A stretch of 64,000 bases of DNA, from NCBI RefSeq assembly GCF_011008565.1, contig NZ_JAAIWK010000003.1:95300-159299 (forward strand). The letters run 5' to 3'. The notes beneath the pieces are model-generated. The model saw nothing but the letters and a program-made list of their open reading frames with translations. It was not told the DNA's origin and did no database searches. The position numbers were made by a program, and so were the translations under genes. Positions 6,291-45,396 of the stretch are shown here, piece after piece (the first letter of the stretch is position 1; the number at the start of each line of letters is the position of its first letter). The stretch comes from Heyndrickxia ginsengihumi (GTDB lineage: Bacteria > Bacillota > Bacilli > Bacillales > Bacillaceae_C).

Positions 6291-6594
6291 AATGTTTATA
6301 ACGATTGAAAAACGATGAAGAGGGAAAGTAAGATTATGCGATTTTCAAAGAGAGCTTCGGGAGCTGAAAAGAAGCAAAGTTGCTAATCTGAACAATGGCC
6401 TCAGAGTTTCGTGCTGAAAATGTTTAAACATGAGTAGGTTCCGACGGGATGGTATTCGTTACAATTACCGCAGTATAAAAGTAGTGTATACTTTGTACTG
6501 ATTTGAGGCTGTTTGCAAGGGCAAATGGTAAAGTAAGGTGGTACCACGTGAACTGAAACCACGTCCTTATCTTTGGATAAGGGCGTGGTTTTTT
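6291..6594 (+). promoter_or_regulatory. T-box leader, probable tRNA-Met sensor
   Basis: The T-box core AGGTGGTACCACG lies at 6536-6548. Stem I carries the loop-E pair AGTA (5' side) and GAA (6390-6392), with AGATT/AATCT above and GAGG/CCTC below. The right side of the specifier loop reads GAACAATGG, so the codon is AAT (6394-6396) or ATG (6395-6397). The bulge TGGT pairs with a tRNA ending in discriminator A: tRNA-Met has A73 whereas bacterial tRNA-Asn has G73. I therefore favour Met. A terminator at 6558-6594 completes the switch. Confidence 0.88.
6558..6594 (+). terminator. T-box regulated terminator
   Basis: The stem ACCACGTCCTTATC / GATAAGGGCGTGGT with a 4-base loop is followed by six T residues. 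Its 5' arm overlaps the antiterminator-forming sequence after the T-box core, as in T-box attenuation. Confidence 0.88.
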
Positions 6595-7650: not shown

Positions 7651-7816
7651 TTTCTTATCCAGAGAGGTGGAGGGATAGGCCCTGTGAAACCTCGGCAACA
7701 GATTCGTAATGAAAACTGTGCCAATTCCTACAGGAGTACCTGAGAGATAAGAAGATACCGAATACTGTTTATAGTAAAGGACATCTTCTTACTGCAAGGT
7801 AGGAAGATTTTTTTAT
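7651..7816 (+). promoter_or_regulatory. SAM-I (S-box) riboswitch
   Basis: The canonical S-box pattern is present: TTCTTATC with AGAGAGGTGGAGGGA, GGCCCTGTGAAACCTCGGCA and GTGCCAATTCC, closing with GAGATAAGAAG. A terminator follows at 7782-7816. When SAM is abundant, it should terminate transcription of the sulfate-assimilation operon starting at cysH. Confidence 0.95.
7782..7816 (+). terminator. S-box expression-platform terminator
   Basis: The stem ATCTTCTTAC / GTAGGAAGAT is followed by a run of seven T residues. Its 5' arm can pair with the end of the aptamer region (GATAAGAAGAT), giving the alternative antiterminator. Confidence 0.85.
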
Positions 7817-22452: not shown

Positions 22453-22582
22453 ATATGATGTATCACTTTACTGCAACTTTCATTGGCATATATTGATTAA
22501 TTTTTAAAAAAATATAAACATTATGTTTATTTATGCTAATTAATCATATAAAATAAATAGTGTACTACTCAATATGATTAAC

Positions 22583-22672
22583 TAGGGGTGTCCATTAGCT
22601 GGGCTGAGAGAGAAACGCGCTTGAAGTTTCTTAACCCTTTGGACCTGATCTGGTTCATACCAGCGTGGGGAA
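22583..22672 (+). promoter_or_regulatory. TPP (thi-box) riboswitch
   Basis: The pattern GGGGTGTCC, GGGCTGAGAGAGAAA, CCCTTTGGACCTGATCTGG and CAGCGTGGGGA is the classic thi box. It lies upstream of thiC, followed by a terminator. Thiamine pyrophosphate should switch thiC off. Confidence 0.96.
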
Positions 22673-22706
22673 AGTTAGTTCAGTTAAGATTGAACACTGC
22701 CTTCTT

Positions 22707-43446: not shown

Positions 43447-45282
43447 TTATTCTACTGTTAAACTTTTTGCTAAGTTTCGAGGACGGTCAACATTATATCC
43501 GCGGACACAGCCAGCATAATAGGCTAATAGCTGTAAAGGAATAGCTGCCAAGATTGGCATAAGAAGAGGGTGTGCTTCAGGAATGTACATAACCTCATCA
43601 ACGACACTGCTTATTGAGTCATCACCAATCGTTGTAATCCCTACAACATAGGCATCACGGGCTTTCATTTCTTTAATATTGTTAACAGTTTTCTCACGTA
43701 AATGGTGCTGTGTAGCAAGAGCAATTACTGGTATTCCTGGAGTAATCAATGCCATCGTTCCGTGCTTCATTTCACCAGCAGCATATGCATCGGCATGAAT
43801 GTACGCTACTTCTTGAAGCTTAAGAGCACCTTCTAATGCAAGGACATAGTCACTTCCACGGCCAACAATAAATATTTTTTCCTGATCATTTGTAATTTGT
43901 GCAAATTGGTCAATGGCGTCTTGCGTCATAATGAGACACTTCTCCACATCCTCAGAAAGTGAATGTAGAGCATCTAAAAGAACAGGGATTTGCTCAACTC
44001 CACGCCCATTCATTTGCTTTGCTAATACAATTGCCAGTAGGACAAGGCCAGTAATTTGAGATGTATAGGCTTTTGTTGCTGCAACAGCTAATTCTTGCCC
44101 TTCATAAGTATAAATTGTGCAATCGGCTTGGCGTGAAAGTGTGCTTTTCCAATGATTTGTAATTGCAATGGTTGGGGTTCCATATTTTTTTGCCTCTTTT
44201 AGAGCAGATAATGTATCTGCTGTTTCACCAGATTGACTCACGACGATGACAAGATGCTTGTCAGTCAACGTACTATGTTCACAACTAAATTCGGAAGCAA
44301 TCGCCACTTCAACTGGAATTTCAATTAATGAATCAAGTATCTTTTTCCCGATTATTCCCGAATGATAAGAGGTACCACTACCAACGATCATAATCTTTTC
44401 GAATGATTGCAAATTTCGTGAATGCAAAAAACCTTCAAGCTCGGGTATAGCAACACCATCTTCTGTTAAACGTCCTTTTAGTGTACGTTTAATTGCCTCT
44501 GGTTGTTCCATAATTTCTTTTAACATATAATGCTCGTATTGTTGTAATTCAAGCTCCTCGTGGTTCCATTGAATATGAACCCGTTTAGGAGTCACTTTGT
44601 CACCGCTCAATGTCTTCACTTCTACAGCGGTCTGTGTTAATACCGCTAATTCACCATTTTTAATTGGATATATATCCTTCGTGTATGGGAGTAGAGCTGG
44701 GATATCAGAAGATAAATATGCTTCATCTTGCCCAAAACCAATGATTAGCGGATTGTTTTGCGAAAGAGCAATCATTTGATTAGGATCATTTTTTGACAGG
44801 ATTGCTAATGCAAATGTTCCTTTCAAAAGAGGGATTACTTCTCGCACAGTTTCTTCAAAATGGCCGGTATCATAGTGAGCTAAAAGATGTGGAATGACTT
44901 CAGTATCCGTATCGGTATGAAAATGATATCCCTCTTCCAGGAGGAACTTTTTTAATTGCTGATAATTTTCGATGATTCCATTATGCACGACAAAAAAGCG
45001 CTCTTCCTCATCGCATAAAGGATGTGAGTTGGAGATAGTTGGAGTACCGTGAGAGGCCCATCTTGTATGTCCAATACCAAGATTGCCATTGATAATAGGC
45101 TCTAATTGAAGAGATGCTTCTAAATCTTCAACGCGTCCTTTTTCCTTTCGAAGTTGAATTTCATGAAAATTTGAAATGGCAATTCCGGCTGAGTCATAAC
45201 CCCGGTAATCCAATCTCCGCAAACAGTCAATTAGGATGGATTGTGCTGAATGCTTGCCAATATAGCCTACGATTCCACTCAT
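43447..45282 (-). CDS. glmS: glutamine-fructose-6-phosphate transaminase family protein with Ser in place of catalytic Cys
   Basis: About 611 residues. GlmS makes glucosamine-6-phosphate from fructose-6-phosphate and glutamine. The glutaminase domain has HTRWASHGTPTISNSHP and HNGIIENY; the isomerase part has two SIS domains (GSGTSYHSGIIGKK, SQSGETADT, GRGSDYVLALEGALKLQEV) and the C-terminal DRPRNLAKSLTVE. The start ATG at 45282 has GAGGTGA upstream, but the next codon is AGT (Ser), whereas the family begins MCGIVGYIG, its Cys being the nucleophile. No glmS ribozyme is seen upstream and glmM is not adjacent, so this may be a second copy. Confidence 0.9.
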   Translation of the reverse strand: MSGIVGYIGKHSAQSILIDCLRRLDYRGYDSAGIAISNFHEIQLRKEKGRVEDLEASLQLEPIINGNLGIGHTRWASHGTPTISNSHPLCDEEERFFVVHNGIIENYQQLKKFLLEEGYHFHTDTDTEVIPHLLAHYDTGHFEETVREVIPLLKGTFALAILSKNDPNQMIALSQNNPLIIGFGQDEAYLSSDIPALLPYTKDIYPIKNGELAVLTQTAVEVKTLSGDKVTPKRVHIQWNHEELELQQYEHYMLKEIMEQPEAIKRTLKGRLTEDGVAIPELEGFLHSRNLQSFEKIMIVGSGTSYHSGIIGKKILDSLIEIPVEVAIASEFSCEHSTLTDKHLVIVVSQSGETADTLSALKEAKKYGTPTIAITNHWKSTLSRQADCTIYTYEGQELAVAATKAYTSQITGLVLLAIVLAKQMNGRGVEQIPVLLDALHSLSEDVEKCLIMTQDAIDQFAQITNDQEKIFIVGRGSDYVLALEGALKLQEVAYIHADAYAAGEMKHGTMALITPGIPVIALATQHHLREKTVNNIKEMKARDAYVVGITTIGDDSISSVVDEVMYIPEAHPLLMPILAAIPLQLLAYYAGCVRGYNVDRPRNLAKSLTVE

Positions 45283-45360
45283 TATGTTCACCTCACAAAT
45301 GAAAAGCTTTCTATAAAATATATGCTATCATGAAACGAAAGGATGTTGTAGAAATAAATA

Positions 45361-45396
45361 AAAAACTTATAGAGATCATTCTCTACAAGTTTTTAT
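45361..45396. terminator. hairpin upstream of glmS
   Basis: AAAAACTTATAGAG and CTCTACAAGTTTTT form a near-perfect stem with a 6-base loop and A/T tails on both sides. It lies between the end of the aldo-keto reductase transcript and glmS, so it could be a back-up terminator or part of the glmS leader. Confidence 0.5.

Follow-up and report, generated by a model that had tools for sequence, protein, structure and literature searches.

Sequence analysis of an ancient GlmS-like paralogue subfamily of Bacilli with serine at the position of the catalytic cysteine

The class II glutamine amidotransferases (GATases) are defined by a catalytic N-terminal cysteine (Cys1), and we know of no Ser-type enzyme in this class. 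In Ser-type Ntn hydrolases, for example penicillin G acylase, the nucleophile is an N-terminal serine and its alpha-amino group serves as the base, a chemistry well established among Ntn enzymes; these hydrolases are not glutamine amidotransferases. Laboratory replacement of Cys1 with Ser abolishes the use of glutamine in PurF and AsnB; the altered PurF can still work with ammonia (PMC3261824). Class II GATase paralogues that lack the N-terminal Cys and occur beside an intact copy have been described as the crenarchaeal PurF' and as Mlab_0150 of Methanocorpusculum labreanum; Mlab_0150, a single recent duplicate, has Ser at this position, and the dead nucleophile site of archaeal PurF' drifts to Ala or Val (PMC3261824). 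These represent another enzyme, and many PurF' have Ala or Val, whereas the Ser of the GlmS-like proteins is invariant across many genera. The SIS-only deaminases GlmD, NagB-II and FrlB, whose SIS domains are homologous to those of the protein studied here, handle amino-sugar phosphates without the help of a glutaminase and have no GATase domain; our protein gave weak NCBIfam matches to them, far below their cut-offs. It is a full-length two-domain homologue of GlmS (glutamine--fructose-6-phosphate transaminase (isomerizing), TIGR01135; E. coli GlmS, PDB 1jxa and 2j6h). No description of a Ser-type GlmS or of a second Bacillus glmS was found in the open-access literature searched.

The window (the whole stretch of DNA analysed, 64 kb) comes from a genome of 3.74 Mb in 63 contigs. 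The gene (43447..45282, reverse strand) was assigned from its open reading frame and a profile match, and encodes a protein of 611 aa with a glutaminase domain (Ntn, class II GATase; residues about 1-240) and two SIS (isomerase) domains (residues about 249-611). The protein matched TIGR01135 over its full length (residues 3-611) with 718 bits (cut-off, 418) and is about 38% identical to E. coli GlmS. Its AlphaFold2 model (pLDDT 85.9, C-terminal tail of low confidence), which was used for fold matching only, matched E. coli GlmS 1jxa (TM 0.88) and human GFAT-1. The reading frame begins with ATG AGT GGA ATC GTA (N-terminus, M-S-G-I-V-G-Y-I-G). The start codon lies at 45280..45282 (reverse strand), where the orthologues also start, and is followed immediately by AGT (45277..45279, reverse strand), which places Ser at the position of the Cys1 nucleophile in the sequence and in the clade alignment; this Ser would be N-terminal once Met is removed. 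A Shine-Dalgarno-like GAGGTG (45289..45294, reverse strand) stands 6 nt before the ATG, and such a motif was present upstream in 38/38 orthologues. The sole in-frame start further upstream, a GTG at 45291, would add only MNI and overlaps the Shine-Dalgarno sequence. We looked for an overlooked start that might bring a Cys to the N-terminus of the window protein; none was usable, and no Cys codon precedes the Ser downstream of a usable start. Further upstream, a hairpin followed by a T-rich stretch (45361..45394, reverse strand; pattern match only) is a possible terminator between the Ser-type gene and an aldo/keto reductase gene, and the Ser-type gene is apparently transcribed on its own. No convincing sigma-70 promoter match was found upstream of the window gene; among the orthologues, an exact TATAAT was present upstream in 24/38 (2.9 expected). 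A search of the window found no glmS ribozyme (RF00234). The window also holds a T-box leader (6306-6571), a SAM riboswitch (7652-7753) and a TPP riboswitch (22574-22689), all above their gathering scores.

Homologues were collected in genus, family, order, class and phylum samples drawn from species-level genome sets, and the best three candidates per genome were scored in the order, class and phylum samples. They split cleanly: all those with at least 58% identity had Ser, and all those with at most 51% identity had Cys. In a tree of Ser- and Cys-type GlmS built without the first two residues, the Ser-type proteins (n = 39) formed one clade (SH-aLRT 100) on a stem of 1.08 changes per site. 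Residue 1 was Ser in 39/39 clade members and Cys in 81/81 other GlmS compared; over a Ser-clade tree length of about 11.6 substitutions per site the Ser was unchanged, never Cys, Ala, Gly or Thr, and AGT is one base away from TGT (Cys). The Ser codon was AGT in 31 members and AGC in 8, and the DNA pattern (start)-Ser-GIVGY, with which the named genomes were scanned, sees AGY codons only. The start codon, at the same place throughout, was ATG in 29, GTG in 5 and TTG in 5. The clade includes Heyndrickxia, Weizmannia, Salinibacillus, Salirhabdus, Fictibacillus, Pullulanibacillus, Ammoniphilus and Aneurinibacillus, together with some uncultured Bacillota; its distribution is sporadic (7 of the 135 genera sampled in the order). 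No conserved gene neighbourhood beyond the genus was found in the 21 regions compared. Judged from these sequences, the Ser type is an ancient conserved GlmS-like paralogue subfamily of Bacilli with Ser at the nucleophile position.

The initial annotation of this DNA had proposed that Ser replaces the catalytic Cys, and had also considered an error in sequencing and a copy in decay. The replacement stands, with the MSGIV reading frame, the Shine-Dalgarno sequence in place and Ser in every orthologue. An error is excluded, as the Ser codon is common to all 39 sequences, including independently assembled named genomes, and decay is ruled out by intact reading frames and by purifying selection in the clade (dN/dS well below 1; see below). 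Beyond the single-base difference between TGT and AGT nothing is left for an artefact, whether an error, a misannotated start or a pseudogene, and its probability is negligible; the unrelated Ser1 GlmS with signs of decay (L048 and L050) differ at other active-site residues too. L041, L048 and L050 come from Puniceicoccales, Syntrophomonadaceae and Patescibacteria, respectively; all three lie outside the Bacilli clade on long branches with uncertain placement, and have changes at other conserved active-site residues, such as W74L in L048 and N98K with H504K in L050. Ser1 was also seen in stand-alone 237-aa GlmS-like glutaminases of Streptomyces aidingensis and Streptomyces sp. YIM 98790 (L033 and L038), which have a GTG start, changed pocket motifs (HTRRATRG and VVQSG in L033) and no SIS domain in the reading frame, and Ser was at the nucleophile position of an 885-aa asparagine-synthase-like protein of a Patescibacteria MAG (L037).

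A second full-length GlmS is encoded in the source genome (L002, C41:248-2047). It starts with MCGIVGYIG, is 42% identical to the Ser protein, and has the sole glmS ribozyme of the genome just upstream (RF00234, 131.6 bits). Thus, the Cys copy with a ribozyme leader and the Ser clade of relatives, both predicted by the initial annotation, exist, as does the absence of the ribozyme from the window that it had reported. The pairing of a Ser copy with a full Cys-type GlmS was found in 35/37 Ser-type genomes, and exactly one glmS ribozyme in 35/37, adjoining the Cys copy and never the Ser copy. The two genomes without the pair are G002 and G837. G002 carries a 147-aa C-terminal fragment of a Cys-type GlmS on a contig other than that of the Ser copy, and its lack of a full Cys copy is probably an assembly gap. 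In G837, a 99%-complete genome, the Ser type is the only full GlmS (G837:C8:638983-640812; L138) and no Cys-type fragment was found. This Ser-only genome fits an active synthase, but it is a single assembly and carries nagA, through which it could salvage amino sugars. G837 also has two PurF-like genes, one of them about 5 kb from the Ser-type gene. Three GlmS, the Ser type and two others, were found in each of G929 and G959. In 30 two-copy genomes, the Ser-copy distances tracked the Cys-copy distances (Mantel r 0.85; 0/2000 permutations), so inheritance of the Ser copy has been mainly vertical. Horizontal transfer or a plasmid origin was considered and rejected, since the distances follow the Cys copy and the best plasmid match was 48% identical. 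An old, mostly vertically inherited subfamily, the further fixed changes at the isomerase site, the altered interdomain linker, and a genome with the Ser type alone go beyond what the initial annotation held.

Residues were numbered by a sequence that we take to be that of E. coli GlmS, and that agrees with PDB 4amv and 1jxa in the aligned stretches. On the glutaminase side, R26, G27, H71, R73, W74, H86, H97, N98, G99 and D123 were kept in 39/39 clade members, and on the SIS side S347, Q348, S349, E481, K485, E488, K503, H504, A602 and K603 were likewise kept in 39/39, these including the isomerase catalytic residues E488, H504 and K603 with K485; H77 and T352 were kept in 38/39. The C-tail is retained as well. 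The window protein has the complete glutamine pocket and oxyanion hole (R73, H77, N98, G99 and D123) and the W74 gate, so that, compared with E. coli GlmS, the known pocket and isomerase catalytic residues are retained except for Cys1. T76 is Ser in 21 members of the clade, and S401 is Ala in 24. The Ser and Cys groups differ by C1S, H88L (one Ile), S120T, S176N, E/D208N, K487Q, S490A (one Ser) and V605L; H88L, K487Q and S490A are fixed or nearly so in the Ser clade, and the latter two lie next to the catalytic E488. The interdomain linker (240-248) has a mean pairwise identity of 0.36 in the Ser clade versus 0.98 in the Cys paralogues. The Ser type is therefore unlike GlmS in Ser1, H88L, K487Q, S490A, the unconserved linker, the missing ribozyme and its place as a second copy beside a normal one. 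For close pairs within the clade, dN/dS ranged from 0.035 to 0.068 over the glutaminase half and from 0.018 to 0.13 over the SIS half, which bears out the earlier suggestion that selection maintains the gene; saturation affected several other pairs. Set against the Cys paralogues of the same set of genomes, the glutaminase half showed no greater relaxation than the SIS half (entropy ratios, 1.34 and 1.63). Between L012 and L013, both of the genus of the window, the synonymous divergence of the Ser gene was 0.10 over the glutaminase half but reached 0.46 over the SIS half, which suggests recombination within the gene.

Judged by homology, length, predicted fold and family score, the Ser type belongs with GlmS. 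Because the defining Cys1 is absent, we did not file it as a glutamine-dependent GlcN6P synthase, but as a GlmS-like paralogue, possibly with the same way of working. Our preferred reading, with a probability of roughly 0.45, is that the protein is a working two-domain amidotransferase, a separately expressed Ser-Ntn isoform. The gene would be expressed as its own unit and, carrying no glmS ribozyme, would escape the feedback by GlcN6P to which the normal copy is subject. Methionine aminopeptidase would expose Ser1, whose hydroxyl could, in the manner of Ser-type Ntn hydrolases, be activated by the alpha-amino group of the same residue and would then attack glutamine held by the R73/H77/D123 pocket and the N98/G99 oxyanion hole. 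The ammonia from this putative hydrolysis would pass the Trp74 gate to the SIS site, where fructose-6-phosphate or a close sugar phosphate would be aminated. Consistent with a Ser nucleophile are the fixed Ser, the kept pocket and SIS residues, purifying selection and the Cys1 partner with its ribozyme in nearly all genomes, and also the mostly shared inheritance of the two copies, the Ser-only G837, the TATAAT box and the missing ribozyme. A strict Ser, neither Cys nor Ala, with an intact glutamine pocket argues that the site is in use; as a dead site is expected to drift, as in PurF', the invariance itself counts for a working one. Against it stand the loss of glutamine use in Cys1-to-Ser PurF and AsnB, the changed linker, K487Q with S490A, and nagA in G837.

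The same observations lend some weight to a dead glutaminase that still binds glutamine, a credible second possibility over which we favour the working Ser nucleophile. Ser1 would hold the amide uncut and the unhydrolysed glutamine would act as an allosteric signal, the protein being an isomerase that senses glutamine, a GlcN6P synthase dependent on ammonia or a GlcN6P deaminase run in reverse. The retention of ammonia use by the PurF mutant agrees with this, as does the isomerase activity of GFAT (Fru6P to Glc6P), which proceeds without glutamine (PMC7948480). The glutamine-binding residues are kept and the linker, which may have lost its coupling of the domains, is changed; K487Q and S490A beside E488, together with the loose linker, keep alive the reading of a glutamine signal with other sugar-phosphate chemistry, and the sugar reaction may differ. 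However, all 39 clade members have the oxyanion pair (N98 and G99) and the Trp74 gate, and binding alone does not obviously need a strict Ser. As for ammonia, GlcN6P synthase, unlike other amidotransferases, cannot use it (review, PMC9272926).

A possible role, combinable with either mechanism, is that of a back-up isoform resisting thiol-directed glutamine analogues. Anticapsin, the warhead of the Bacillus product bacilysin, alkylates Cys1 of GlcN6P synthase (PMC9272926); an isoform without the thiol would not be alkylated and would sustain the synthesis of cell-wall precursors. Having no ribozyme, it would be spared shutdown by GlcN6P, and the sporadic distribution would suit an optional trait. 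On the other hand, no antibiotic cluster or exporter was found as a conserved neighbour of the Ser gene, and mostly vertical inheritance and the lack of a close match on plasmids are unlike typical resistance genes, which makes this role unlikely.

Annotation that relies on the family score alone labels these proteins glmS, so they are probably handled as ordinary members in annotated genomes and metabolic models. Tentatively, and at less than even odds, the subfamily could be the first class II glutamine amidotransferase family in nature with a Cys-to-Ser nucleophile that still hydrolyses glutamine, giving its hosts a feedback-free second GlcN6P synthase insensitive to thiol inhibitors, or a different amino sugar. 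With a whole subfamily keeping Ser and an intact pocket at a position where the laboratory exchange kills glutamine use in PurF and AsnB, evolution has either found a way to make a Ser nucleophile work or converted a glutaminase to the sensing of glutamine. Each of these outcomes would be new, and the subfamily raises the testable question of whether an enzyme of the GlmS kind can run on serine.
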